From Scatophagus argus (Eukaryota > Chordata > Actinopteri > Scatophagidae): a stretch of DNA of 64,000 bases. The notes under the pieces are model-generated. The model was not told the DNA's origin. It did not search any database and saw only the letters and a list, made by a program, of their open reading frames with translations. Shown here in pieces: positions 47 to 40,418 of this stretch. Within the stretch, counting starts at the first letter, position 1, and each line of letters begins with the position of its first letter. The DNA is taken from assembly GCF_020382885.2 (NCBI RefSeq), contig NC_058506.1:11386318-11450317 (forward strand), given 5' to 3'. The translations under genes were made by a program, and so were the position numbers.

Positions 47-3000
47 CCTGACCAAAACCTTGAAAGTGTTGACTCCATCATCTACAGCCCTCTCAATGTC
101 ATCCATCAGGTTGTCAGTGGAGCCCCTGATCACCACCGTTGAGATGGCACCATCCTCTTTCTCTGTTTTAAACAAGACCACAATACATTATGATACATTA
201 AGCCTAAAGCTCACAGCAGCAAACATCAGCTCTAAAGTGAAGATTCATGGGATTTGAACAAACAGTGATTTACCGTGTTTGAAGACCACCACCTGGGTGT
301 CTCCAACCTCTGTCAGGTACACACTATCGCAGTGACCCATCTCCTCTGGAGTGGGAGCCGTCTAAGGGAGCAGAAAAGCATCATTTCACCTGATATAACG
401 GTCCGTTTTATTATTGGTTCAAATACTTCATGTGAACCAAACACCATGACACTCACCATCCTTGGCAGTGCGACAGCTTGCACAGTCTTGCATAACCTCC
501 TGAGGTCCCACTTGGAGTTAAGCCTGGTGGAGAAAAGATAACAAGGATTTAGGGGCCAGGCAGAACACAGGTTAACCCTACTACCAAGAAGACCTTGCAA
601 TCCCACTAAATTAATAATATGATCAATTATGATGATTTTTATTCTGCAAATCAAAATTACAGATTGATCTCACAAAGAATATGCGCTCACAACACTAACA
701 CATGACAACTCTCCCTTTCACTCAGATCTTTCACTTTAGGTATACACAACATATGTAATGTGGTGATCTTAGATGAAACCTTAACAAACTCATCTCTTTC
801 CTTATATCATGTAAATATAATGTCCTGCCCATCTACTGTTCCACAGTGACCTAATGTCAGTCGCACGGGGTAGCAGTGTGTTGGTCACTTCACCACCAAT
901 ACCACTGGCATCGGTCCCCTCTCAATTTGGTTCAAACTGCGTTTTTTGTGGTAGTTTTAAAGAAAACTTCAAAAAAAAAAAAAAAATCCTGTCCCACTAG
1001 TTCCGATCAATTAATAATTAACAAGTATTTGGATAATTAGAGGTCATTCCAGTCTTACCTGACCACCATGAGCTGGTACTTGTTGGCATAGTGCAACGCC
1101 ATGTCAGCCACTTTTCCTCCAGTTACCAACACATTGGCACCAGCCTCCTTGATGGCCTTCACCTGAGCCTCCATCATATCCTCCTCTCCCTTACTGAAGT
1201 CCATGAGCTCCTGTGCATTATTTATCAGCACTGTGCCCTAGGAGACAGATATGCCTACTGTTAGCACCAAGATCAGCCCAAGATGCCTTTAGAGGATCAA
1301 GTGCATTGACATCATGACTTTATAAACCCCCATAAATGGGTCTTTTTCAGAGTAGATATTTTGTCATAGCAGGAAGAGAATATGTTACTAATAACATTAA
1401 TGATGGCTTTGTGCTATTCAGATACCCCAGTAAGTCATGGTTGTGAGCCAGCATGAACAATACCACATTCTAAAACTGAAGCAGCCAGATGAAAATCAGC
1501 CATCATTTATTAGTTACGTGTGCTTTTACTACTGTGTCAAAATATTTTCCATACAAAAGCCTATAATATTGAGACCTTTAGTGTCTCAACCATGTTAGTT
1601 CATGTTTAATTTTACAAAGAATACTACTTGTGTCTCTTCTCCTTAGAGGTGTGAAAAGGTTTCAGGCCATATGTGAAACTGACGGAAACTTAAGAGGATA
1701 CCAGCATATGACAAAGCATAAAATTTAAGCATAGTCAGTTTTTTTTTCCCCTTTCTCTAACTTATCAGAGACTGAAGTATTTGTTACCTTTGTCTCTGTC
1801 ACCATGCAGTCAAAGGGGCAGGAGTAGACGGCGATCTTGGCGTCTTTAACTGATTTGACGTCTCCCTCTGCTTCTTTCTTAAACACCATCCCATGCAACA
1901 TGGAGGATGACGTCACCCCACAGCCCTGAAAACGGCACAGATATTAACTTGGAGGCACACAACACAAACACACAGACAAGACATTCAATGGCTAATGCTG
2001 CTTACCAAGATCTTGCACACTCTGACGTTATCAACATTGAAATTGCCAGACTCTGGGAAGATGGACACTGTAGCATAACAGTTAGGAAAAGAAAGTGAGA
2101 GAAATACAAAATGAATACTAGAATTAAGTTTATTATTTTTGACAGTCTTTGTTTAGTTCAGGTAGTTTGCACTGCTGACTCACCACAGGCCTGTGCGATG
2201 AGGTTGGCGAGGAAGTCTTCGTTGCCGTACTGTTTACTCATGACTGCCGGGCGAATGAGAGATGTCGCCTCTTTAACATCATGGAGATTCTTGGCTGAGG
2301 AACATACGCAGTCTGGCAGGATCTCCAAAGCCTTTTTGCATGCGCTCTCATAGCCTTCAATCACCTGCGGAAAAGAGGAAAGGGGACACTGAGCAAATGC
2401 AGCCACTGATTTCTTTGTGATGCAAAACTCAATGTTTTTGCAGACTATTATATCGATATCAGCTCTAAAACTACTACCATATCACCCTCATGTATACTGC
2501 CACTATTACGCTGATTTGTATAAAGGACATTTCTTGTTTTTTTTTTTTGTTTTGTTTTTTTTATAAGAGTTTAACTTTATTGAAGTATCAACCAGAGATG
2601 ATAACGATCAGTGACTACATCTGCTTACCTCTGACACAGAAAGGCCCATCCTGAGTAGCTCCTCAGCCAGCTCCAAGAGAGCTCCAGCAAACACCAGGAC
2701 AAAGTTTGTGCCATCTCCAACTTCCTGTTCTTGCATGTGGGATGCCATCACTACCATTTTGGCTGCTGGGTGCTGCACCTATAAAACAAAATGATATTCA
2801 TGCAAAAGGTTAATCTCCTTCCTTTATAAATCATTCCTGTATGCAGCATGTTGAACAAAAAGATTTCTTCACCTCAAGCTCTCTCAGAATTGTTGCAGCG
2901 TCATTAGTGACAAACAACTTCTCCAAATGGTTGATGACCATTTTGTTCATACCTGAAAGGCACAATGTCATAGTTTAGCCATCACTGAATCTGTTGTCTT

Positions 3001-5947: not shown

Positions 5948-8649
5948 TCAGTTGGGTTTGTGAAAAGTATTCACAGCCGTGTGGGCCCAACCTCCCAGTG
6001 TGTTTGAGAGGTGCGTGGCTCGACGCGTGAGGTTTGAGCGACTAAGTTTACCGCTGGGGTCCAACTTTCTCATCACTGCTCCTCCACAATGTTCCCTTGT
6101 ATTGGTTCTGCAGAAAGAAAGAGAGAACAATTACTAAAGAAAGCACAAACAGAGAACCAGTGAGCGATAAAAGTGTCCGCATGCGTCATGGACTCAGTTA
6201 AACCTTTCAAGACTGCATTAATACCAGGGCTTGATCTTTTTCCGCACCAGCCACTGTGGCCAGTGCTCTTCTAGAGAAACTAGCTAACAGTATGTCGACT
6301 ACTGCAGAATTTCACATATATGTGTAGGTGGGCAGGTGCCAGTGCATTGATAAGTACCAATGGGAAATGGAAAATGGCACTAAAACAATCATTAATTTAC
6401 GTCTCTGCTCTTTAGAGATGCATCTAAAAAATGTTTGTCAACAATATTTCTAGACCAGACACAAGATTTCCAAAGCTGTGAAACACTTTTCAATTCCATT
6501 AATAAACTGAATTAATTTTGAATACCAGAAGCTTAGATCTCTACAAGGTATTTGAGACTTGCAGAAAGCCTGGTAAGTAAGAAATATTCAAGAACTGATA
6601 AGGCAACAGAGGAAAAGTCAGTATGTAAAGTCAAGGATAGTAATGGGGGAGAGAAGTGTGAGTCTGAAAGTGAAGAGCATATTCTGCATGGACAATCACG
6701 GTTATTTATCAGTCATAAAAAAAAGCAGTGGGTCAGACACTGTCACAATTTCATACACATAGCTGTCCATGCATCACTCTGCCATGCATAATTTTATGTC
6801 ACAAAATTAGTTCCACTCAGAGCATATTTTTCCACAACTCATCTGTGTTTGGATTTACCTTCTTCCCTACTCCACAATTAGGGAATAGTTGAACTGCCTG
6901 TTGTAGGAAGAAAACAAAGAAAACAAAATCCCAATGGACGAGTTCTTCATACAGAGAGGAAAGCAGTCAGCTGCGTGTAATACACACTGATAACAGACAA
7001 GGTCACTGTCCACGTGCATCTCCTTGTGGGCTGGTCCAGACCATGATTGGACATTTTGAATGTCAATGCAGGAAGTGATGCAAATATACTTCGAGCTCTC
7101 TCAAGTGCATTTTTGTCATTTCATCTGGTTCCAATTCCCACACCCATATGCTCTACCCCTACTGTCCCCCCCTCACTCCCTCCTCATCCGAATACCAGAA
7201 AGACAGACCCAGTTTCAAATTGACCCGGGAAGAATGTATGTGGGGGGAGGGGGAGGAAGTCTAAGGCCCCTCAAGCTGAGCAGTAGAATGGGATTCTTTG
7301 GGCGGCAGGGTTAAGGGTGTGTGTGTGTGTGTGTGTGAGTGCAGCAATGAGATTCTGTTGTCTCCACTATGAATAAAAACAAATGGACCAATACCTTCGT
7401 CAAATGCAAATGCACACATATACAGCACACACATGCTTTCATTCGTGCTTACAAATAGTTAAAAACTAATAAAACTACTTAAAAACAACTCTTACTTACC
7501 TCACTGGTAAAATGAAAAGAACAGAGATATTACAATTTACCAAATGTCAACAATCAATACATTTAACCCTGCTTTACCTATCATCTCTGCCGATTACATC
7601 ATCAAAGGCCTTGGATAGATGTTTGAGCCTCCTGAGTCCACTGGACACCGACTCCAAATCTCGGTCAAACTTTCTGTTACAGCAGAAAAACAAATACTCA
7701 GAGCAGAGAAAACCACACAAATGAAAGCAAACAAAGAAGAAAAAAAAATCAGAAAAACATCAGGACAAAACCAACAAAGCCAGATGTGAATAATAGAAAA
7801 CTCACAGCCTCTGGTTCTGCGTGTTGGGGGAAGCAAATGGACTTCGTAAAGCAGCCATGCGGACCAGCTGCCTCCTGCCTCCTCCTGTTCTCACCCCCCG
7901 AACACCAGCTTCAGGAGTCCTCCGTCCTCTAGAACCTGGGGTACGTCCCGGTGTGGCTGAAGCTTTAGGGGTACGTCTGGGCGTTGCAGCTTGGCCAGGC
8001 GTACGTCTTGGGGTGCGAGAACTCGGTGCACCAGCTTCTTCCCCATCACATGTGCGACCAGGGGTCTCTACTAAACACTCCTCACGTGAAAACTCTCTGG
8101 TCCTCTGCAGCCTCTGTGTAAGGGAGAAAAGGAGACACAAGAAGACAGATGATGAGAAGGGAACAGATTGGCACATAAGCGGCGCGATTATCACACATCT
8201 ATATCATAAACTTAATGTTAAATGTGTTGTTTCATACCGCAACAAAAATGGAAAGGAATCAACTTAATTTCCTGTTTTTTCACACAAAATCATTTCTTGT
8301 ACACATTCCACCAAAGTAAAAATCACACCGACCCATTTACCTGATACATCCCACTGATGGAGTTGCGAGCACTGCGAGTAAGTTTACGGACTGTGCTGGA
8401 TTTTGGCTGCTCCTTCATGGTTTCACAAGTGGGATTCTCCGGGAGGGAGTTAGTCTGGACAGAACGCAGTGGGAGACGCTTGCGCAGTGACATTCGCAGA
8501 GAGTTAAGTGAAGATGAGGAGCGAAGCTTGCGGAAACGGTCAGGGGCTTCTGGGGAGCTCTCAGCTCCATCAGACTCATCTAGGACTGTATGTGCACGCC
8601 AGACTCCGACCACAGCTCTACCAACTCCATCCATCACTGACGACGCCAT
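5948..8649 (-). CDS. pimreg: PIMREG (FAM64A/RCS1/CATS)-like mitotic regulator
   Basis: Known in mammals as a cell-cycle-regulated nuclear protein (PICALM-interacting, metaphase-anaphase regulator). Coding exons: 8341-8649, 7806-8113, 7578-7673 and 5948-6107, giving 290 codons in frame. The ATG at 8649 lies 15 bases after a splice acceptor (exon from 8664), so the 5' UTR starts in an upstream exon with a donor at 9596-9600. Evidence for the family: residues 51-64 contain RKRLPLRSV, like the mammalian RRLPLRAV block; residue 192 onward reads LRSPFASP, like FRSPYSS; the helix FDRDLESVSSGLRRLKHLSK (from about 208) matches mammalian SDLEPVGAGIQHLQKLSQEL. Between these lies a basic stretch with repeated RTP motifs (about 135-170), plausible proline-directed phosphorylation sites. 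The last exon is the least certain: a 39-base alternative exon at 6859-6897 would end the protein early. Confidence 0.85.
6859..6897 (-). other. Candidate alternative terminal exon of pimreg
   Basis: A 39-base segment is bounded by a CAG acceptor (6898-6900) and a GTAAAT donor (6853-6858). Spliced to the 7578-7673 exon it reads QFNYSLIVE then a stop, giving a shorter C-terminus than the 5948-6107 exon. The mammalian protein ends soon after the same helix, so a short tail is plausible. Inference only, with no transcript evidence. Confidence 0.3.
7317..7337. repeat. (GT)n microsatellite
   Basis: About ten GT units within the last pimreg intron. Confidence 0.9.
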
Positions 8650-9674
8650 GCTGACCGAGTTTACCTGCAATAGAATTTACGGAACAGCACAGTGTGTAAC
8701 ATTACGAAGCTTTAATAATAGTTTTAAAAATATGTATCTTAAGTGTGTTTCACAGGAGTGAGTAAAATACAAGGTGTTGAACAGTGACACCAAATCTGTC
8801 AAATTTTGCTGCAACAGATAAATCTGTTTGTCTGCAACAATTTTGATGATTATTTAATTTATTTAACAAGCAGAAATCTCTGGGTTCAGCTTATCAAATT
8901 ACAGCATCTACAACATATATATCACTATATATATATACATATATCTTTCAAAACACCACATTCAGCTAATATTTTTTGGCATTATATAAATACTCGTTGA
9001 CGTAAGTAAGAGTAATTTCATCTATGAAGAAAGAGACAAACAAGTTTAATTTGGGCAACTTTAAGTGTAACTGGTACTTAAATAAATAATTTCGCAATAA
9101 TCTGACCAAAAATGTGAAAAATGTTGACCAAAAAAGGAAGGAAAATGAAGCTGACCTGTAGCAACCCGTACAATTAGGTAGCAGTTAACCGTGTTAGTAA
9201 AAGCCCCGTTGCTATTGTTTGATCAGGATTTCTTGCTTTGCAGGCTGCCCTGCCCTGTTAATCCAGCTAACTTTATGGCTTCATCCAAAACACAATCTGA
9301 GAAGCAAACTGCAGTGATTTATCATGTATGCGTCAAACGGAAACGATAATGAAGTCACACTTTCATACTCTTACCAATGAAACGTATTCAAATGCAACCA
9401 TTACCACTAAAAGACCTGTGATTATCACCCACAAATAACATAAAGAGGGGTGTACCACTGAAAGCTCCGTTAGCTTATCTGCAGTAACAGCTTTAGCGGA
9501 CGTTAAAACACGAGTTTTCGGGGGGAAAGTCTATGTTAAATATCCTGGAAAAGACAAAGGAAACCCAGATACCACACCGACTGTACTACGGCCATCTTAC
9601 CGTGAAATTGTGAGAATTTGTTTGCGGTCTCAGTTTCAGCTGCCTGTTGTTGCTGTGTTTTCTTTCTTTCACTG

Positions 9675-12638: not shown

Positions 12639-14748
12639 TTACTTGCTGCCACAGCCTTTGAAGCACTGTCAAAAGAGAAATAAACATTGAGAGGTTCAGT
12701 TTGGAATGAATTGGGGTCGATCATTATGCTGTTTGTACATCTGTTTTGCATGTTACCTTCATAATTATCTTCCACCGTGACAAAACAGCAAGAATAGCAG
12801 TCAGGGACACCACCACAATCCCTGCTATCATGGGCATCAGTGGGAACTTCAAGGTTTTTTCTACAGATGTGAAGAATGAAGATGATTGCCCAAGAGCATT
12901 AAAATATCAAATAAATCAATTTTATACTGAGATGTGGCTTAAGAAAAAAAATTGACTGTGAACTGACCTGTTAATGTGACATGGAAGAGCTTGGTGTTGT
13001 CTCCATAAATGGGAGAGACTGCTGAACACTGATATGTGCCTTCGTGCAGGCTTTTCATCACCCTGTTGGCCGATAATTGGCTTGTAAAACCATCATTGGT
13101 CACTGTGAAGCCACCTGCTTCTAGATCCACTTGGCTTCCGTTTAGTTTCCAAGACACGGATGAGACTGGTGGATTGGCCCAAATATCACACTTCAGGAGC
13201 AGGTCTGACTCTTCTTCTATTGTAACCTTCTCTGACCCAGAGAGCTGCGGGCGATCTGAAGGGAACATCACAGATGTCATATTGATGCTGTGAGTTTCTT
13301 GAAGCAAAATTGAAACAGACATTCTTTTTATATAGACACACAGATTTCCCTCAATGTCAGCCTGCTGGTTGGCCCACCCTGTTGGTACAGTTAGATCAAT
13401 TGCTATAAAATTTTGTGCATAGCAGATCATGTATTCTAATGACATTCCTTCTATGCTAAGACGGAGAACATGGTAAGCATTATGTTAGCATGCTTTACAT
13501 GTTACATTATGTTAGCAATTAGCTCGAAGCACTGATGCACCTAAAAATAACCTCACAAAACTGCGGTCAACTTGTCAATTGTTATGTCCTGATGTCTGTT
13601 CCCAAGCAATGCTCCTTGACCTCAATGGAAAATATCATGAGGTCAGAAAAGAGGTGAAGAGAAAATTCATAAGCCTTTACAGAAAAAGGCGACTGCAGTG
13701 CTAAGCAGTGCTTACACTATGCTACATATGTGATGGCTGATGTGTCTGCAGTGGTGAAATTACAATGTTCTGACTGTCTTCTAATGAACTTTTCTAGATG
13801 TTGAGGGTGCTGCAGCATTCACAGAAATCTGGAATTAACAGAAAGATAAATCTGTATTATATATCTTCCATGAAATGTCTAAATCCTGACTGCACTTCAT
13901 TATTATAAGCTATGATACACTGGTGGTGGGTCACATCTCCAGGTGCCCCAGGTTTATCACTTTTTGACTGTGTTGCCGTGGCTGCTTTGAAATGGCATGA
14001 TGACTTTAGACCTTGTTTTCTTTTTCTTTTGAAATTCTTTGCAGCAGCTGAAATCTTGACCTGATGGTGCTGTTAACTAGGTGAAAGTTTAAGGATTCAC
14101 CAATGTGGTTCAAAATCTTCATGAAGAAAAATGGCTGTACAAAATTTCAGAAAATTCATCAAGTAAATGTCAAGATATTTTACTCAAACCACAAAACATC
14201 ATTCAGACATTGATTTGAAGAGACTCACATGTGACATCCAAGGTGACTGAGGCATTAACTGTGGCATCTTTGCTCAGGTGGCAGGTGAACGTGGCGCCAT
14301 TGTCTTCATAGATGATGGGAGTAACACACACATAGCTGTGATTGATCTTATTTCCTTCCTTCAGACTGACGGCAGCACCATTCCTCAGCCAGACCAACTC
14401 TTCATTAGCTTGGTGGTCATGGCTGCTGTCAAGCTGGCAAACCAAAGACACGGTCTTGTTCAGCTCTGTCTTTATAACACCATCACTGTTGACATCTGGG
14501 ACAGACTGGATCTCGACACCTTTGAAAAAGGAAAAGGGGAGAAAACTGAAAGGGATGACTGAATAAAGAAGTAAATGTTCAAATTGCACAAAAGTAGAGA
14601 GAAAGATAAATCTAGCCTGTTATTAGAATAATTTAACCTAAAGAGGCTGGTTGGATTTAATTGCTGGCGACAAGACATGCTTACCTAACGCCTGGGTTGC
14701 ACAGCACAGGAACAAATGGAAAAAAAAAGATCTGGACATCAGCTTCAT
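12639..14748 (-). CDS. tmigd1: TMIGD1, transmembrane and immunoglobulin domain-containing protein 1
   Basis: A single-pass cell-surface protein known in mammals from kidney and intestinal epithelium, with roles in adhesion and cell survival. Coding exons: 14685-14748, 14229-14519, 12968-13255, 12757-12860, 12639-12665, giving 257 residues (the human protein is about 262). Domains: signal peptide about 1-21; Ig domain 1 with C49, W65 and C101; Ig domain 2 (about 119-213) with C141, W154 and C195; membrane helix about 222-242; then a short basic tail ending in GCGSK. The block GNKINHSYVCV and the junction VTYRPQLSG closely match the family. Several N-x-S/T sequons are present (for example NKT, NHS, NAS, NGS). 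All exon phases agree. The 5' UTR is carried partly by an exon about 1.4 kb upstream. Confidence 0.93.
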
Positions 14749-25300: not shown

Positions 25301-28300
25301 CAATAGTAGCGAACGTTTTTAACGTGGCTGCAAACTATATCTTAATCTTCAGCCTGAAGTTGGGTGTCAAGTAAGTGTGCCACGCTTCTTCTCCTTTCCT
25401 TTCTATTTTTGTTAAACTTCACTTTGCTTGACATAGTATCAAACTTCAAGTGCCATGACCAATAAAATATTCTAGCTAATCCTCAGAGAAACTCTCTTTA
25501 TCACTGCACTGTTATCCAGAAAGGAGAGGGCTGAATATATATACAGGAGATCAGAAAATTCATTCTACATTTTAATCTAAAAGAAGAATTACCCACTCTT
25601 GCTCGAACAGAGTCAACAGCACCCTGATGTTTATTATTGTTGTACTTTATTTAGAGAGGGAGGCAGTGTAGGGCAGCGAAAGAAGAGAGAGAAGTTGATC
25701 CTGGTCCAGCTGGACAAACATTTGATTCAACAGATAGCTGACTTAACCAATCAGAATGCCCTATTTGAGTCAGATCTGTCCCCTCTCATGTCAAGCATGC
25801 ACTCCTGCTTGTCCCTTACTCGCAGACTCTCAGACATCAAGTGTGCTCATACTACAGTGTAACTCAAACCCCTCAGTGTGCAGTCTTTGGCTAGAGAGAA
25901 GGATAGAGAATCACAGTTAACGTAGACAGCCCTTCAATATAAAAAGATGCTCTGTCATGTGTGTCTGCAGTGGATCAGCAATTGCTAACAGCCTCTCTCA
26001 GATCAGCCTCTGCCTGCTGCTGCTTGGCTACATCAGATGGAGGAAGCTCCATAAGCAGACATGGGGAGGTGACTTGTTTACAAAAAAAAACAAAACAAAA
26101 CTGAATAAGAAATACTGAATGATCAGCGGTTGTCCTGTTCAGGCTATAGTGAGTATAACACTAACCTAACCCCTCTGTATGAACCTTTCTGCAGGCTGGT
26201 CCACTGACTGTCTGCAGGAGTGGGGCTCCTACATGAAGCTGGCTATTCCCAGTGCCTTCATGGTCTACTTTGAGTGGTGGATCTGGGAGGTTGGAGGTTT
26301 CATGGCTGGTCAGTGTTGTTTGCCACACATTTCCTGCAGGCTTAACACCCACTGCACACACACTTGCTATTTGGAAATATATGAAACATTTGTTCTGTAT
26401 TATCAGTGCAATTCAATGTACCTTTTTTTTGGCTGAAGAGATTAACACAAGAGTGCACAATTCTGAAGAAACCCAACCACTGAAAATAAGCTAATGATAC
26501 ACAAACAAAAAATACTTCTCTTTTTAGCTGAAATGAAAATGGCTGCAACACATTGCCTATCCCACAAGATTGTGATAATATGAATTTAAATAAAATTCTC
26601 AGTTATTTAAAAATGAAGAGAATAACCTAAAAGTGTATCCCATGTAAAAGTTCAGTTTTTGTCATTTGATTTAAGTTTCTTATTGGGAAAGTTTTTGTAC
26701 ATGTCTGAATCCCTGGCCTTTGTCACATCAGGTGTACTCGGGGAGGTGGATCTTGCTGCCCAGCATGTGATGGTGGAAATAGCATCCATAACATACATGG
26801 TATGGATCATTCAGTGTTTTCAGTGTTGAACATATATATGCATATTATTATTTAAGAATAATTCAGCATTTTGGGAAATGCCCTTATTCACTTGATGCGA
26901 GCAGTGGAAAAGGGCTAGCTTGCCAGTCCTTATGCTCAACTAAGCTAACTGCCTCCAGTGCTCACACAGACACCACATTGAAATTGATCTTTTCATCAAT
27001 CTCACAGAAAGACCAAGTATATTTAATAAACTATTCCTTTATGTCAGCTGTATGACTGGCTGTAATTAACCTCAAGGAGTCACACTGGGTCCTTGCAGTT
27101 CCCTCTAGGTGTCCATGGAGCTGCCTGTGTGCGTGTTGGGAACGCTTTGGGGGCTGGAAACACTTCCGGAGCTATACTCACTTGCAAAGTGGCCTTGATT
27201 CTAACAGGTACAGTATGTACACCTGTTAAAGACTTATACTTGTTAACATGTATGTATATCATTAATGTAACCTGACATAATGTTTTTGTTATAGGCATAT
27301 ATTCAGTAGTCCAGGGTATTGGCATCATGGGTTGTAAGTCCGTCGTTGGATACATATTTACCTCAGATGAGTGAGTGTCAGACCCACACACATTTGTTCC
27401 TGTACCACGTAAGGCAACTTTGCTTTTAATGATATTCTGTTACTGTCTGCAGAAACATTGTGAAGATTGTCTCACAGAATCTCACAGTCCACACATTTCT
27501 TCAGTTTTTTGATGCAATTCTGGTATGTACAGAACACAACAAATGTTCTTGTCTTGTTTTACACTGAGCGCTCGAGTTGAATAGTACAGCAGGCTGTTTG
27601 CTTCTTTTATTTAACTTTGTGTGTGTTTTCAGTGTGTTTGCTCAGGGATTATTATAGGAACTGGGATGCAGATAATTGCTGCCTTGTCCAACTTGGTGGC
27701 TTACTACTGCGTTGGTCTACCAGTGGGAGTAGCTCTGACATACTGGGCCCAGCTCAGAGTATTAGGTAATCTTTCCATTCAATCTTTGTGTGTTTCTGCT
27801 AACAACAATTAAATAAATATAGTGAGCCTGTTATTAGTGTCTTACGCCAACCTTTTTTGGCTGGGGATCCCTATGTTTAGTCTGAAAATGTTCACAACCC
27901 CACAAGTTCCATGTCATTGGTGCTTTTTAAATGAAAGAGATTTTAATGAAGTGTAATGAAAGAATGTTACTTCTAAAGCTCTGTGCACATACAGCGAAGC
28001 TCACATGTCTCTTTGTGTCTAAATATACTGCTGTGCTTGCACATCATGCTGTGGCCTAATGTCAAACGGTGTTGTTTAGAGTGCACATCACCTCTCATTT
28101 GTCATGTCTAGCACAGACTGGGCATTTCATGTAAACAAATAAATAAATCCATTTTGACACAAATAAGTGGTTGTAGGAAACTAAATGTTTTAAAAGTGCC
28201 CTGTCATCTTTGGGCTAATAAAAAACCTCCTTAAAGTGTTGATTGTTAGTGTAGATTGTTAATTATAAAACAATTCTTGTATTTCTTTGTATGTACCAGC

Positions 28301-33280: not shown

Positions 33281-36200
33281 TCATTCCTTTAATTCGAGCA
33301 GTCTGGTGAGCAGCTCACTAATGAAGACTCCAACAGCGAGGATGACGAAGACGAGCAGCACTGCGAGACCACGTCGTACCACCAGCTGCCTGACTGACAG
33401 AGCCACGTCATCTGAAGTCTGCTGACCTGCACCGGGCGTTTCCAGCTTCCCCTCCACTGGACTCAAAGAACTGCATCGACTGGTCTTTGAGTGTTTCTCA
33501 TTGCAGTCCAGGGCTGAGGGGGAGACAGTTTTAATACATGATTAATGTTACTTGTGCAGTAGTTCGTGTATGTAGCTGTAAGTGAAATAGCTTGTGTTTA
33601 CCCATGTTGTCAAGCCCAAAGATCTTGTTCCTTTTTGTAGTGTCGACTCCTGCTCTTACCTGTGCCTAATTAGAGATATTTAAAACAACAACACTGTATT
33701 AACAGAATTAGGTATGACACAAAATGTCACCAGAAGAGTCACTCACTTCTTCAGTGGCTTTCTTCCAGCTTAGTTTACACAGAAAAAGTGTAAAAAATGC
33801 AGACTGTATCACAACACAAATTAAAAACCCCAACCACAGTCCTGCAACAGAGATGAAAAGTTCATTAGCTTGAGTGGAAATGTGATTAGATTGTCACTTA
33901 CTGTACAAATATTTAATCTGCCCTCACCTACAATGCCCAGTTTGACAGGGAACATCAGAGATGCCCCGATGGGGAAGCCAATGATGTAGAAACACACCAA
34001 GTTACACACAGCACCAATGATTTGCTTCCCTGTCCCCCTGACTATTCCTCCTGCCACAGCCTGTGGAGGTTAAACAAAGGAAAATCTAAAATCTGGCTCA
34101 GCAAGTCCGTTTGATAAACTGATAAATTGACTTGTACGACAAATGAGCTCACCGCATACGCCTCAGCAATATGGACGAAACCATACATTTTCATGACATC
34201 AGCCACCCTCTGTATGAGGTCTCTAATAGCAAACATATGCATGAGAGTGAAATTCTAACAAAGACAGGTGAAGTGCAAATTTCAGTGTATTTTTCCTTAT
34301 AATAGATTACTTCATCTGCCATCTCTCTGGTAGTGACAATACTTGGTTCTTGAGGGTCAGTGTCCATCAGAGGTTAATACATGATGAATTACACTTTGAC
34401 TTCATATGAGCTTTTTTTCTGTTAGTTATTGTTTCAGAGGAAAGAAAACACGTTGAACGTTAGATTAGGTCCCAAAATGTGCACTCACTTCTCTGTGGTG
34501 AAAATGTAGCCAACCACATCCTTAGACACAATGAGACAAGCTCCAGTGAGACATGAGACAGCAGCTGGATTGGGCATAGGAAATGCAGCACGTTGTTAAA
34601 CAAAGATGGTGTATATATAAAAACAAAATGAGGATTTGCATATAAATTAACAAGTGAGAGCAACAGAGAACAGAGCAGAACATTTAAATCGACAAACAAG
34701 GCACAGGACTTTGAAGAAGGTTTGGTTTGTGGAGGAACAGATCTGAGGAGCTCTCTTCTGTGACATAATTCGACTCAGCAGCCATTGCCTCTGTGGTGGT
34801 GATTTGCCAGGCTACAAATTTGATTCATACATGCACAGATGAGGGAGACCTTGCTGGACAGTTTGGCTTGCTCTGTGTTCCCTGCGCCAAGAGCGTTTCC
34901 AACCCGCACACTAGCAGCAACAGAGAAGCCCATTGGAAACTGTGGGATAGGAAGAGAGTAACTGAAAACAATCACTTCATGGACAAATGTAGCAATAAGT
35001 ATGGTCCTGTGAATCCATTCAGTTGATCATTTAAGAATAAAGCAATGCAAGAGAGTTACCATGTAAACAATAGCAGCCAGTTCGTAAACTATAGACTGAG
35101 CTCCCAACTCGACCTCACTGATGACACCGGCCAGGAACCCTGCGATCTCATACAGCCACCACTCCAGACAATGCATCAGCATGCTGGGGATGGCCAGTTT
35201 GAGGAAAGGACCCCACTCCTGCAGGCAATCTTGTGACCAACCTACAGTCGGAGATAACTAATGGTCATTTTTCTAACGTGGTGTTGACATTACATGACAG
35301 ATGATACAAGAGTCTCCAGACAGACTAGCAGCTCTGTGAGGCTGGTGCCAACAGTGATTTAATCCCTTGAACTTACCATCCCAGGTGGCTTTGTGTAGTC
35401 CTCTGGAGCAGATGTACACAAACAAGAACACAGCCAAGGAATACTGTGAGATGGCATTGGCAGCTGCAGAACCACTTTTGTGTTGTCAGGAAGATTAAAC
35501 TGTCAAGTATGGCGGCGTCGCTGACGCAGAAATTAGCTGAACCCCGATGCAGAGTCAAAAAGAGCAGGCAGGCAGGCAGGCAGATCCCAAAAACAAATGT
35601 CTTTTAATTAAACTAAACTAAACACAAAAGCACACTTACTGTGGAAAAACTAGGCAAGGCATGGCATGGCAAGGCAGGGCAGGGCAGGGCAAGGCAAGGC
35701 AAGGCAAGGCAAGGCAAAAACAACAACACGATCCGATCATGGCATGGGGGAAAAACACAGACGCTCTGACAACAGTGACTGGGAAGACAAGGACTAAATA
35801 GACAAGACAACGAGACACAGGTGACACACATCAGGAGGGGAAAAAAGCAATCAAGAAAACTAAAAGCAAAGCTACATGAAAACAGGGCACACAGGGGAAG
35901 AGACACTTTCAAAATAAAACAGGACATGACAAAAACCTTGAACATAATACATGGAAACACATGACAAGACAAACATGAAACATAGCACATGGACTGAAAT
36001 CAAGAGACAAAGCATAACAAAAAAACCAGGCATGACAGAACCCCCCCCTTAAGGAACAGATCCCAGATGTTCCTAAACACAAAAAACAGTACATAACCAG
36101 GCTGGGCAGGTGAAGGGGGGACCAGGAAGGAGGGATCAACCAAAGCAATAAACCAAGAAGTCAGAGATTCAACCCGGGTGCAGGGCATAGGCCCGGACTG

Positions 36201-39200
36201 AAACCTCGGGTGGGCGACCCCAGTTCAACACCCAGGTGAGACTTGACGCATCTGGGGGTCTGCCCAAATGCTGGGCCAGGACCCAACATGAGGCCTCAGG
36301 TGGTCTGCCTGAGGGCTGGGTCAGAACCAAGGGCCGATCCATGAGTCGCCTCTGGGGCGACCTGATGAGGCGTGAAGACCTGAGGAGCCATGGAGACCTG
36401 ACAACGAAACCTGGAGACCTGATGACCTGACTTGGAGACCTGAGGACCTGACGTGGAGATCTGACGAGACGTGAAGATCTGGTGACCTGACGTGGAGACC
36501 TGACGAGACGTGGAGACATGGCGACCTGACATGGAGACTTGGCGAGACGTGGTGACCTGACGAGACGTGTAGACTTGGCGACCTGACGTGGAGACTTGGC
36601 AAGACGTGGTGACCTGACGAGACGTGGAGACTTGGCGGCAAGACGTGGCGTGAAGGCAGGCAGACCCAGCCCGGAGACGGTGAGCTGCGGTCCGTCTGTT
36701 GAAGCATGGGGCCCTGCCGTAGCTTGGGGTGCTGGTGGACCCAGACCTGGAACAGCGGGCTGCGGTCCATCAGCTGAAGCATGGAGTCCTGACGTAGCTT
36801 GGGGTGCTGGTGGACCCAGACCTGGAACAGCGGGCTGCGGTCCATCAGCTGAAGCATGGGGCCCTGGTGTAGCTTGGGGTGCTGGTGGACCCAGACCTGG
36901 AACAGCGGGCTGCGGTCCATCAGCTGAAGCAGGATGCCCTGGCGTTGCTTGGGGTGCTGGTGGACCCAGACCTGGAACAGCGGGCTGCGGTCCATCAGCT
37001 GAAGCATGGGGCCCTGGCGTAGCTTGGGGTGCTGGCGGACCCAGACCTGGAACAGCGGGCTGCGGTCCATCAGCTGAAGCATGGGGCCTTGGCGTAGCTT
37101 GGGGTGCTGGTGGACCCAGACCTGGAACAGTTGGCTGTGGTCCATCAGCTGAAGCATGGAGCCCTGGCGTAGCTTGGGGTGCTGGTGGACCCAGACCTGG
37201 AACAGTGGGCTGCGGTCCATCAGCTGAGGCGAGGAGAGCGGAGACGGCAGACAGTCGCTCCGTCAGGGTCTGGAAAATGGCGTCGATCTCCGCGACGGTT
37301 GGCGGCTCGATCCGCAGACTCCGCCCCGGCAGCGGGGAGCCTGATGCTGGATGCAGGCCTCCCCGGGGCCTGAAGCGGCGCATCTGCTCCTCCCAGAGTT
37401 CCACCAGATTGGGAGGCCGGGCCGCCAGACCGGTGCCCGCATTAGAAGACTCTACGGGGTTCATTTTGGTCAGAGCGTTCTGTCAAGTATGGCGGCGTCG
37501 CTGACGCAGAAATTAGCTGAACCCCGATGCAGAGTCAAAAAGAGCAGGCAGGCAGGCAGGCAGATCCCAAAAACAAATGTCTTTTAATTAAACTAAACTA
37601 AACACAAAAGCACACTTACTGTGGAAAAACTAGGCAAGGCATGGCATGGCAAGGCAGGGCAGGGCAGGGCAAGGCAAGGCAAGGCAAGGCAAGGCAAAAA
37701 CAACAACACGATCCGATCATGGCATGGGGGAAAAACACAGACGCTCTGACAACAGTGACTGGGAAGACAAGGACTAAATAGACAAGACAACGAGACACAG
37801 GTGACACACATCAGGAGGGGAAAAAAGCAATCAAGAAAACTAAAAGCAAAGCTACATGAAAACAGGGCACACAGGGGAAGAGACACTTTCAAAATAAAAC
37901 AGGACATGACAAAAACCTTGAACATAATACATGGAAACACATGACAAGACAAACATGAAACATAGCACATGGACTGAAATCAAGAGACAAAGCATAACAA
38001 AAAAACCAGGCATGACATAAACGACAACAAAAAAAGATAGAAGAACAAATCACACAATCACTTATACAGATAAGTCCTCAGAAAATTCCTCCAGCTGATG
38101 AATGATACTGTGACTTAAAATATTGACTCTAAAGAGTACACTATTATGGTGGGTGGTACTCACGCGACACCCAGATCCAGAAGATTTAGGAAGATGTAGT
38201 TGATTATTGCATTTAAAACATTCCCAAAGGCTGCAGATATCACCTGAGGCCACATGATGCCCTGTGAGCCAAAGACAAACGCTGTTTTAAAAACGATCTC
38301 AACACATCAGTGCTCCTACTCTTTGTTACTTGCTCACAGTATATGCTTCTTTGTAATGCTCATGCAAAATTATATCCTCACTGACATACTTTCAGTCATT
38401 ATTTTCTTTCACATCAGTGGTCTTGCAGTCATTAAATGCACCTGATTCTGGAGATACCTCCCCTGCAGCTGGTACATAAAGGCAGCCTGCAGAATTCAAC
38501 ATCAGCAAATGAATGGGGTTAATTAGATCAATAATACAACACAGCAGCCATTCAGTACAGCGTATATGGATGAAGATACAAAAAACGTTTTGTAAAACTG
38601 TGGAGGAAACTGAACTCACTGGCAGAGCTGGTATAAAGATCTTCACATACAGCTGGGAGAGTCTTTACGTCAGAAATTAAGAAAAGGAAAATTGTGAATC
38701 ATAGTGAATAAGTTGACTGATGAGTGACAAGTGCATATGTAGAATTTAATGTCATACAATGCCAAGTTTGAAGTGAAAATGATTCACCTGGCGACCTCTG
38801 GGCTCTGCTTGACAGCCAGCAGAATCGGTTGAGTATTAATGAGGACTGCCCAGCAGGGGAAACAGGCCAAAAGCAAGATTAAAACTCCCCTTTGGAGTAT
38901 CACTCCCACACGCTTAAAGTTACCACTCCCATAAGTCTGCAATAAAAGGGGTCAGAATATCAGATAAATAAAACAACACTTACTCTTGTGCAAAGAAAAC
39001 GGCAAAACTGACACAGGAGAACAAATCTGAAAGAGCATACTGTGAATGTGGAAGTATCTGGTCTGGACCGATCTGGTTATATGAAGATGAAGATGAATTG
39101 AATACCTGAGATATGAGAGTATCACATGCTGATGCCAAACCGCAGCCAATGGAAATACCTGTGACATTTATTACCTGCAGTGTAATGAAGTATTTTCAGT

Positions 39201-40418
39201 CCAAAAAGAAGAGACCAATATGCTTGAATAATGTGATAAAAACAAATTCAACAGCTATGACAGAGAATGAGCAGCGATCTTTGAGAAAACGATGTTAATA
39301 AAAAAACAGAAACAAAACTCACTGCTATTGCTAATGCCACCCCTGCCAGCTCTGTCTTCCCCAGGTGACCGCAGAACACCACGCTGACAAAGCCGATCAG
39401 GAAGCTCATCAACTGTGAAATAATCTGAAAAACAAAAACCGCGCACCCTCGTTTTGAGATCCATAAAAACATAAATGAAATTCACCAGACATGAATGAAA
39501 TATCGAACTCCACGTGCAACACATACAGTAGCTGATTGAGCTATTACTCATAGAAAAAAAATGTTGTCTCAAAAGGCCTTCAGGTAAGAATAAGTTCTCA
39601 TTTGTTCTGGCAGCTGACAAGTTATGCTTTGGGTTTGCTGCAGCTCCTTTGTGCTTCTAAATGTCTTTACTACCTCTCTTTCTTTTCCTTCAAAAAAAAT
39701 AGTTTTCGTGATTGATGGTGTAGGTTTTTGACAGTATTTGGCATCAAAAGGTTTGCACAAAAGGAAACTAAATGCCCTCGTTTATCAAGTTCTGGGTTTG
39801 TGCAATGAAAAGGAGTCAGGGATGTTGGCTTCTTCGAATTGCTAAGCTATTTTTCTCCTCACTGTAAAGAAGACAATTCCAAATGAACTTTAGTTTATGG
39901 TATATTGAAAATACTGTAATTTCCTTCATCTAACATTTGTTAGGATAATGCAGGTCACATGATGTATATATCTATTCTTGAAGGATTTCTACTGGTTTAC
40001 TTTTAATTTAGATATAATTCAGTGAAGTTAGACATGATTTAGACTCACATCTATAACTTGGAACTTCTTCTGAAACATCTTCAAGACTAAATGACTAACT
40101 TTATCCAACATATCACACTGTATTTGTGAGACTTGAACTAGTGACATATCTTATATTATAATACTATTACATATTTAGCCCTTTTGGTGCTGTCAGACTC
40201 TGGTCAACCATTGCACCTAAACATAACCTTACCACAGGTCCTGCCAGTTTAAAGAGCAGAGCTGTTTCATTCTTGTAGTCAACGGGTACGCAGAGCTTGA
40301 TGCGTTTCAGCCAGGATCTGCAGCATGAGTCAACACTGTGAGCAACAGGAGGTGATTCGTCTATTTTGGACTGTCCATTTACTCCTCTACGAGTGTTTTT
40401 TGTCGCTAAATCTTCCAT
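33281..40418 (-). CDS. slc47a1-like: MATE-family multidrug and toxin extruder (SLC47A), canonical copy with LTR insertion in intron 7
   Basis: Proton-coupled organic cation/drug exporter. Sixteen exons: 40233-40418, 39323-39424, 39106-39174, 38788-38936, 38620-38662, 38442-38486, 38164-38261, 35377-35474, 35060-35241, 34831-34939, 34489-34564, 34153-34222, 33928-34060, 33747-33841, 33602-33665, 33281-33513; 583 residues, a normal family length. Motifs: [40 protein letters not shown] (E290, E295), SEVELGAQS (E308), [12 protein letters not shown] and HIAEAYA (E406), so all four conserved membrane glutamates are kept. The terminal helix [16 protein letters not shown] precedes a short tail. Exon 9 (182 bases) equals exons 9+10 of the plus-strand paralogue (114+68) without an intron. 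The acceptor of exon 8 (35475-35476) is only about 20 bases from an LTR retrotransposon. Confidence 0.94.
35496..35500. other. Target-site duplication (left), TAAAC
   Basis: Matches the five bases at 38018-38022 immediately beyond the other LTR, as expected for LTR-retrotransposon integration. Confidence 0.9.
35501..36037 (-). repeat. 3' LTR (element orientation)
   Basis: 537 bp, TG...CA ends. On the plus strand it contains GGCA tetramers (35566-35582) and an AAGGC/AGGGC pentamer array (about 35653-35716). Element-sense AATTAAA at about 35606-35612 could serve in polyadenylation. Confidence 0.93.
36038..36054 (-). promoter_or_regulatory. Polypurine tract for plus-strand priming
   Basis: Element-sense CTTAAGGGGGGGGTTC directly abuts the start of the 3' LTR, the expected position for a polypurine tract. 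It fixes the element's orientation as minus. Confidence 0.7.
36169..37464 (-). CDS. Repeat-rich 431-residue ORF of the LTR element
   Basis: Starts 16 bases inside the 5' LTR boundary and fills almost the whole interior. Residues 1-78 are non-repetitive, with a plausible helical segment ([20 protein letters not shown]). About residues 79-255 hold seven 25-residue repeats of the type [17 protein letters not shown] plus a decayed eighth. About 263-355 is a Ser-Pro-Arg-rich array (SPRLV/SPRQV), and the rest is a short unique tail with three GRPP(E/D) repeats. I recognise no gag zinc knuckle or enzymatic domain. It may be a degenerate gag-like product or may simply be kept open by repeats whose length is a multiple of three; other frames are also open there. 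Confidence 0.5.
   Translation of the reverse strand: MNPVESSNAGTGLAARPPNLVELWEEQMRRFRPRGGLHPASGSPLPGRSLRIEPPTVAEIDAIFQTLTERLSAVSALLASADGPQPTVPGLGPPAPQATPGLHASADGPQPTVPGLGPPAPQATPRPHASADGPQPAVPGLGPPAPQATPGPHASADGPQPAVPGLGPPAPQATPGHPASADGPQPAVPGLGPPAPQATPGPHASADGPQPAVPGLGPPAPQATSGLHASADGPQPAVPGLGPPAPQATAGPHASTDGPQLTVSGLGLPAFTPRLAAKSPRLVRSPRLAKSPRQVAKSTRLVRSPRLAKSPCQVAMSPRLVRSPRQVTRSSRLVRSPRQVLRSPSQVIRSPGFVVRSPWLLRSSRLIRSPQRRLMDRPLVLTQPSGRPPEASCWVLAQHLGRPPDASSLTWVLNWGRPPEVSVRAYALHPG
36365..36650. repeat. Degenerate short tandem array (GACCTGACGWGGAGAC-like)
   Basis: Irregular units of about 12-30 bases built from GACCTGA, CGAGACGTG and GGAGACTTGGC. It encodes the SPRxV-type array on the minus strand. 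Confidence 0.75.
36700..37224. repeat. Seven tandem 75-bp repeats
   Basis: The word GACCTGGAACAG recurs at exactly 75-base spacing (its AACAG at 36751, 36826, 36901, 36976, 37051, 37126 and 37201). Units differ by a few substitutions and no indels, so the reading frame is kept throughout. Confidence 0.95.
37481..38017 (-). repeat. 5' LTR (element orientation)
   Basis: 537 bp, same sequence as 35501-36037 as far as I can compare line by line. The bases just inside it (element sense GAACGCTCTGACCAAA) do not begin with the usual TGG of a tRNA primer-binding site. Confidence 0.93.
38018..38022. other. Target-site duplication (right), TAAAC
   Basis: Second copy of the 5-bp duplication, abutting the TGACA end of the right-hand LTR. 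Confidence 0.9.

Follow-up and report, generated by a model that had tools for sequence, protein, structure and literature searches.

The minus-strand slc47a gene carries a young LTR retrotransposon in intron 7, inserted in the orientation of the gene and just upstream of the exon 8 acceptor, and normal messages from this slc47a copy are probably reduced. Two slc47a (MATE transporter) genes were located in the window (the whole analysed stretch of 64,000 nt), one per strand. The minus-strand gene is an SLC47/MATE transporter: a 146-aa piece matched the Pfam MatE domain (E 2.8e-19), a 325-aa piece, whose query included one surplus residue at the exon 2 boundary, matched human MATE1 (chain 9r10_A, E 1.3e-115), and the frame is intact. 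An old pseudogene was considered and rejected, as the full model including exon 11 (34564-34489) is translated without an internal stop. The junction of exons 7 and 8, between which the element lies, is gap-free in the alignment to human MATE1. The coordinates are given in Table 1.

Table 1. Features of the minus-strand slc47a gene and of the LTR element in its intron 7 (positions refer to the window).
Feature	Position	Strand	Description
slc47a	33281..40418 (coding span)	-	16 coding exons, 583-aa frame; based on exon model, Pfam and human MATE1
Exon 7	38164..38261	-	98 nt, donor CGC/GTGAGT
T-rich tract of intron 7	38023..38053	-	severed from exon 8 by the element
Target-site duplication, second copy	38018..38022	.	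TAAAC
LTR element	35501..38017	-	2,517 bp, same orientation as slc47a
Upstream LTR (5' in sense)	37481..38017	-	537 bp, TGTCATG...CTTGACA
Poly(A) signal, upstream LTR	37583..37588	-	ATTAAA
Putative self-primer binding site	37469..37478	-	ACGCTCTGAC, 2 nt after the LTR
431-aa open frame	36169..37464	-	25-residue repeats; putative coding
Polypurine tract	36041..36050	-	AAGGGGGGGG, 3 nt before the downstream LTR
Downstream LTR (3' in sense)	35501..36037	-	537 bp, identical to the upstream LTR
Poly(A) signal, downstream LTR	35603-35608	-	ATTAAA, second copy, LTRs being identical
Target-site duplication, copy by exon 8	35496-35500		TAAAC, within the last 26 nt of intron 7
Last 26 nt of intron 7	35475..35500	-	between LTR end and exon 8; weak acceptor CACAAAAG
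Exon 8	35377..35474	-	98 nt, phase 2 in, 1 out

Structure of the inserted element

A genuine LTR retrotransposon insertion, and not a chance arrangement, was confirmed by the agreement of several features: the LTR pair shows 0 differences over 537 bp, the target site is duplicated over 5 bp, the element ends with TGTCA...TGACA, a polypurine run precedes the downstream LTR and a possible self-primer is present. The putative primer site ACGCTCTGAC is complementary over 10 nt to GTCAGAGCGT of the LTR (37750-37741), which lies 30 nt further on from a TATTTA box at 37780. In mononucleotide shuffles of the LTR, a 10-nt complement anywhere in the 25-nt leader, with no position of the match required, was obtained in 80 of 5000 cases; the complement by itself may be regarded as moderate evidence.

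The inside of the element is GC-rich and measures 1,443 nt. When seven repeat units of its 431-aa frame were compared, 12 columns varied, seven of them at third codon positions. Further reading frames are also open across the same stretch, hence the openness of this frame proves little. The first 89 and the last 170 residues gave no match in Pfam; the first 89 residues used as a query yielded two word-sharing candidates, none with E ≤ 0.001, and exact patterns of the LTR and the inner repeat had 0 matches in viral_contigs. A second copy of the element was not found in the window, in which a blastn search with the element masked returned three matches of 17-19 nt (E 0.34-0.94).

Classification of the element

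We call the insertion a non-autonomous LTR element, which is probably sushi-like. Its layout resembles that of non-autonomous, self-priming Ty3/Gypsy elements of the Tf1/sushi type; only a non-autonomous relative of this group would be possible, since pol would not fit into the 1,443-nt inside and the long sense frame is repetitive. Gag, protease, reverse transcriptase and integrase were not recognised in the element. The putative self-primer layout, the 5-bp duplication and the TGTCA...TGACA ends fit the Tf1/sushi chromoviruses of fungi and vertebrates. In contrast to these, the element is without pol (reverse transcriptase and integrase with chromodomain) and has one GC-rich frame of 25-residue repeats, and its poly(A) signal is ATTAAA, not AATAAA. 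For the Tf1/sushi group, self-priming is described in PMC6317226, and a T-rich U3 or LTR start with a 3'-placed signal in PMC3601003. With TRIMs and other non-autonomous LTR elements the insertion has in common two LTRs, a short inside, a putative primer site, a polypurine tract and the lack of pol. TRIMs are defined as shorter than 1 kb with terminal repeats of 100-250 bp, a primer site and a polypurine tract, and no pol (PMC6934838); an assignment to them was ruled out by the total length of 2,517 bp and the 537-bp LTRs.

Strength of the exon 8 acceptor

The acceptor reads ...TTGACAG TTTAATCTTCCTGACAACACAAAAG/TGGTTC; exon 8 lies 26 nt from the LTR end and 21 nt from the duplicated 5-mer, the latter in agreement with the distance of about 20 bases given in a preliminary description of this stretch. 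For comparison, 30 acceptors were placed by homology, 15 each from the minus-strand and the plus-strand slc47a gene (exon 2 of the latter, which was not located, is left out), so that the set is drawn from two genes only. The generic matrix and the branch-point matrix used here are built on approximate values. The exon 8 acceptor was indeed weak: it scored lowest of the 30 with the generic matrix (-1.9, the next being 4.0) and second lowest with a leave-one-out matrix built from the other 29 sites (1.4, the lowest being -0.8). Its T fraction at -20..-4 (0.24) is the lowest of all, and it is among the three of the 30 acceptors with A at -3. The acceptor of exon 5 in the same gene model also has AAAG.

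That the insertion damages this acceptor, as had been proposed, is supported in part. The pyrimidine tract is split and the site is weak, but a change of the core acceptor score was rejected: the core 3' splice-site score is equal with and without the element because the last 26 nt of the intron are the same in both states. In the present intron 7, the true acceptor is outscored by 115 of 140 AGs, and even in the empty intron it ranks only 9th of 10, while with the same matrix the true acceptor comes out on top in 8 of the 14 other introns of the gene. Therefore, either the matrix misjudges this site or the site relies on features beyond the last 20 nt.

A U12-type intron was suggested by TTCCTGAC at -12. 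U12 introns have the consensus RTATCCTT at the donor and TTCCTTRAC at the branch site; the donor GTGAGTACC departs from this, and GTAAGT...CTGCAG are the ends of the corresponding intron in the plus-strand paralogue. This possibility was rejected.

Displaced tract and branch-point candidates

The far flank reads ...TTCTTCTATCTTTTTTTGTTGTC in minus sense and is T-rich, and the earlier suggestion that the insertion splits a pyrimidine-rich tract was borne out. Rejoining the flanks with one TAAAC gives the empty site, an intron of 167 nt. At -60..-27, the pyrimidine fraction is 0.76 in the empty site versus 0.56 now and the T fraction 0.65 versus 0.24. This empty-site T fraction exceeds that of all 30 acceptors (0.18-0.59, the filled exon 8 included), and a single site, at 0.79, surpasses its pyrimidine fraction. 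The AG-free zone is shortened from 64 nt to 25 nt, and the LTR/target junction adds an AG at -27/-26 (35501-35500), which is the extra CAG (TTGACAG) noticed previously.

Among the branch-point candidates scored, TTGAC from the LTR end (yUrAy-type, A at -29, followed by TTTAATCTTCC) is tied for the best score, 5.4; the A of this motif lies 2-3 nt from the junction AG. CTGAC at -12 is level with it, close to the AG and present in both states, as is TTAAT at -21 (4.9). In the empty site, the weak GTGAT at -54 (2.7) is the sole upstream candidate above the cut-off within -60. The LTR further contains CTAAT (A at -59, 4.9), with another AG (GTCAG) between it and the junction.

Acceptors with distant branch points have a long AG-free zone, counted as large at ≥ 100 nt, whose distant end carries the tract, and the use of the first AG has exceptions, namely AGs that lie no more than about 12-15 nt from a branch point (PMC1431707). 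With its poor proximal and exceptionally rich distal tract the empty site resembles such acceptors, but its AG-free zone of 64 nt is below the 100 nt. Exon 8 may have had no distant branch point in the first place, since TTAAT and CTGAC are present in both states and GTGAT is weak.

Intron length and signals in the LTR

With the element, intron 7 measures 2,689 nt, 16-fold its length without it, whereas the other introns of the gene span 81-808 nt. The switch from intron to exon definition is placed at about 200-250 nt (PMC9225289).

LTR positions 37974 and 35994 are candidate acceptors scoring 12.8 by the matrix derived from slc47a (native leave-one-out maximum 11.4); with the generic matrix, for which the native maximum is 13.8, 37759 and 35779 reach 12.0. 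When the LTR was shuffled by mononucleotides 1000 times, 294 of the shuffles attained this 12.0, and the best acceptor on the antisense strand of the LTR scored 1.9; acceptors that look this strong are expected of T-rich sequence. Donors were compared among 28 sites: the minus-strand gene contributed 15, and the plus-strand gene 13 out of 14 attempted, as one anchor was not located. The native donors scored 0.6-10.7, with exon 7 weak (4.1, 7th lowest of 28) and exon 8 strong (9.3); the LTR donor ACA/GTAAGT at 37619 and 35639 scored 8.7. Each LTR has one sense ATTAAA, with a T/GT-rich stretch, CATTTGTTTTTGGG, downstream of it. Early polyadenylation in the LTR, which had also been put forward, thus has a basis in the sense orientation of the element and in its signals; as an outcome it is predicted only.

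Proposed effect on splicing

The following course of events is proposed. A young, sense-oriented, non-autonomous element, probably of the Ty3/Gypsy type, jumped into the 3' end of the 167-nt intron 7 of slc47a; the sequence itself shows the insertion with its identical LTRs 26 nt before exon 8, the weak core acceptor left as it was, the split tract, the new AG and the longer intron. Before, exon 8 would have used a distant branch point together with the U-rich tract at about -60 to -27, and would have been recognised across the short intron. The insertion puts 2.5 kb between exon 8 and this tract, together with any branch point that precedes the tract, and interrupts the AG-free zone; by lengthening the intron, it would force exon definition on an exon with a poor acceptor. 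Carriers would then show less joining of exons 7 and 8. Exon 8 might be skipped, which, given its 98 nt and its phases, shifts the frame, as stated before, with a predicted stop after 261 residues. In addition or instead, transcripts might end in the sense LTR or splice into it, for instance using an LTR acceptor and then ATTAAA (predicted stop after 258 residues when spliced to 37973). Use of the LTR-end AG (predicted stop after 302 residues) is a lesser possibility; retention of intron 7 would give a stop after 231 residues.

Taken as a whole, i.e. displaced tract and branch point, exon definition and reduced exon 7-8 joining, this is the explanation towards which we lean, with modest confidence; a measurable drop in exon 7-8 joining appears fairly likely. 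Reduced splicing of exon 7 to exon 8 is likely because the tract is 2.5 kb off, an AG stands at -27/-26 and the intron is past the boundary of about 250 nt. The loss is expected to be partial rather than complete, as the old acceptor and the branch-point-like LTR end remain. Normal splicing could persist, given TTGAC at -29, TTAAT at -21 and the closeness of the junction AG to a branch-point-like A. The papers on splicing and insertions cited here concern mammals.

Alternative outcomes

A competing reading places the main effect in the upstream LTR and makes the acceptor damage secondary. Exon 7 would be spliced to the LTR acceptor at 37974 or 37759, or its weak donor would be read through, and cleavage would follow the ATTAAA at 37588. 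ATTAAA is a common but weaker variant of the poly(A) signal, which counts against such a premature end, and its use here is a prediction only. The signal is in sense and has the T/GT-rich CATTTGTTTTTGGG downstream, the exon 7 donor scores low, and the LTR acceptors exceed or approach the best native ones, although T-rich sequence yields such acceptors easily, as the shuffles indicate. In mouse, Trpc6 and Kcnh6 messages end in an intronic IAP with less normal splicing, but aberrant forms seemed minor in most of 19 genes with chimeric transcripts (PMC3088655). We judge this reading to be a real possibility that falls clearly short of an even chance. Somewhat less probable still is a nearly neutral insertion, in which the core acceptor stays intact, TTGAC (-29) takes over or the native TTAAT (-21) had served all along, and splicing copes with the longer intron as usual. 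The scores of these two motifs, the unchanged last 26 nt and the AAAG acceptor of exon 5 are in line with it, and the LTR-end AG is near enough to the A of TTGAC to belong to the exceptions of PMC1431707. The loss of the T-rich stretch, the interrupted AG-free zone, the 16-fold longer intron and the 115 AGs that outscore the true acceptor argue against it. The reading frame of the gene, which is intact, cannot show tolerance, since the LTR is too young for its intactness to mean this.

In a more specific version, which we regard as unlikely, the LTR terminus itself is a working branch point, TTGAC (-29) and the old TTTAATCTTCC replacing the displaced distant one, and the adjacent LTR/target AG would be skipped because it is too close. 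If this were true and other copies also end with TTGACA, each sense insertion would have a branch-point motif of its own, carried along by the element, at the downstream junction, and insertions just upstream of acceptors would be partly self-neutralising. The reverse case, in which the junction AG (35501-35500) becomes the acceptor and 25 frame-shifting bases (35499-35475) are added to exon 8, seems improbable and is the least likely of the outcomes proposed. The AG is the first one upstream of the true acceptor, and the branch-point-like CTAAT of the LTR might serve it. However, GTCAG lies between the two, TTGAC is too close to serve, there is no pyrimidine tract before the junction AG, and it scores 2.4, rank 78 of 140 AGs. 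The cryptic use of this CAG that had been suggested earlier is thereby weakened, yet precedent for it exists: in the NF1 cases reported in PMC7317903, new AGs in the zone were used wholly or partly in 32 of 49.

Age and frequency of the insertion

The insertion is young. Zero differences in 2 x 537 bp give a 95% upper bound for its age of about 0.3-1.4 million years at assumed rates of 1e-8 to 2e-9 per site per year. The insertion could be private to the sequenced animal, or a mildly harmful allele of low frequency, and would then tell little about slc47a in the species; with identical LTRs and so low an age bound we rate this as not far from an even chance, though the allele may also be fixed. 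Long identical repeats are a known assembly hazard, and a misplacement of the identical LTRs or of the element might stem from it. Considering the exact 5-bp target duplication, the clean ends, the complete internal structure and the flanking exons, which are intact and in order, an assembly artefact is highly improbable.

Comparison with mammalian cases

Among mutations of the human gene NF1 (PMC7317903), 57 of 91 non-canonical 3' splice-site mutations made a new AG in the zone. For single-nucleotide 3' splice-site changes located upstream of -3, the figure was 49 of 55; exon skipping was seen in 24 of these 49.

In mammals, the surroundings of exons are depleted of LTR elements, most of all of elements in sense and of those close to acceptors, and for full-length elements in mouse the depletion zone extends to about 2 kb from exons (PMC3088655). 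Mutagenic mouse LTR insertions lay in this zone in 29 of 40 cases (20 of the 26 with known direction in sense), compared with 435 of 1447 full-length reference elements (PMC3088655). The distance of 26 nt found here is just outside the <20-bp class of that study. Similar to the sense intronic IAP and ETn elements near mouse exons (Trpc6 and Kcnh6, with fewer normal junctions), this is a young LTR element near an exon for which chimeric or truncated transcripts are expected; those, however, are endogenous retroviruses with measured transcript effects, while the present insertion is known from its sequence alone. An LTR insertion at the same transporter family is the ETn near Slc47a2 in CAST/EiJ mice, which is tied to higher expression of the adjacent gene, not to splicing (PMC10671454).

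Slc47a (MATE) transporters are exporters of cationic drugs and toxins (PMC4928094). The insertion would be a good candidate for a functional polymorphism because a recent sense LTR at this distance from an acceptor falls in the zone depleted in mammals (PMC3088655). The event is of an ordinary kind and otherwise one more possibly gene-disrupting insertion, but the site is unusually telling, as it separates two ideas on splicing, one in which a distant tract and branch point are lost and one in which the LTR end comes to the rescue.

Neighbourhood of the slc47a genes

The whole window was searched with Rfam at the gathering score and scanned for tRNAs; neither an Rfam match nor a tRNA was found. 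The genes present point to a vertebrate, very probably a teleost. The plus-strand slc47a gene was followed between about 23.7 and 30.2 kb; its first exon, recognised by eye, probably lies near 19.35 kb, and a Pfam search with this piece gave no match. Left of the slc47a genes, chaperonin pieces were detected whose best PDB match is CCT theta (E 3.2e-23), with Pfam Cpn60_TCP1 below its cut-off. Another piece to the left matches Pfam RCS1 and presumably represents PIMREG. Ig-domain pieces on the same side, one above and one below the Pfam cut-offs, look tmigd1-like by eye. On zebrafish chromosome 21, tmigd1 adjoins mate3, 4 and 6, and teleosts have 3-6 copies of Slc47a (PMC4928094).

Potential promoter activity and open frame of the LTR element

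Downstream of the presumed sense start, each LTR of the element in intron 7 of the minus-strand transporter gene slc47a contains a good splice donor (37619 and 35639, both minus strand). With a presumed start and a donor in each copy, the downstream LTR could drive 5'-truncated slc47a transcripts in which donor 35639 is spliced to exon 8 or 9.

The open frame of this non-autonomous element consists of proline-rich repeats of 25 residues. Seven full 75-bp units, in which 7 of the 12 variable columns are third codon positions, are followed by shorter repeats with periods of, e.g., 18, 21, 39 and 57 bp. The two end pieces (first 89 and last 170 residues) had no match in Pfam.

Features located in the window
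Feature	Position	Strand	Basis
Chaperonin piece, CCT theta	1728-2481	-	PDB match
Piece with RCS1 domain	8326-8676	-	
Ig-domain gene pieces, tmigd1-like	12942-14619	-	likeness to tmigd1 by eye
Plus-strand slc47a, exon 9 counterpart (two exons)	26195-26308 and 26732-26799	+	read by eye
Minus-strand slc47a, exon 9 (continuous)	35060-35241	-	read by eye
Presumed sense start and LTR donors, through to slc47a exon 8 end	37750-35377	-	
431-residue open frame	36169-37464	-	
Minus-strand slc47a, exon 5 acceptor region	38620-38662	-	

Gene structure and neighborhood

By eye, the plus-strand slc47a paralogue has an intron after ...GGFMAG, and the minus-strand exon 9 has none there; one intron thus appears to be present in the former and absent from the latter. 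At exon 5 of the minus-strand copy, an AAAG acceptor similar to that of exon 8 was also observed. CTGAC is found nearby with its A at -8, preceded by the pyrimidine tract, as at exon 8.

The RCS1-domain piece is presumably PIMREG. In zebrafish, mate3/4/6 likewise have tmigd1 as neighbor, according to PMC4928094.
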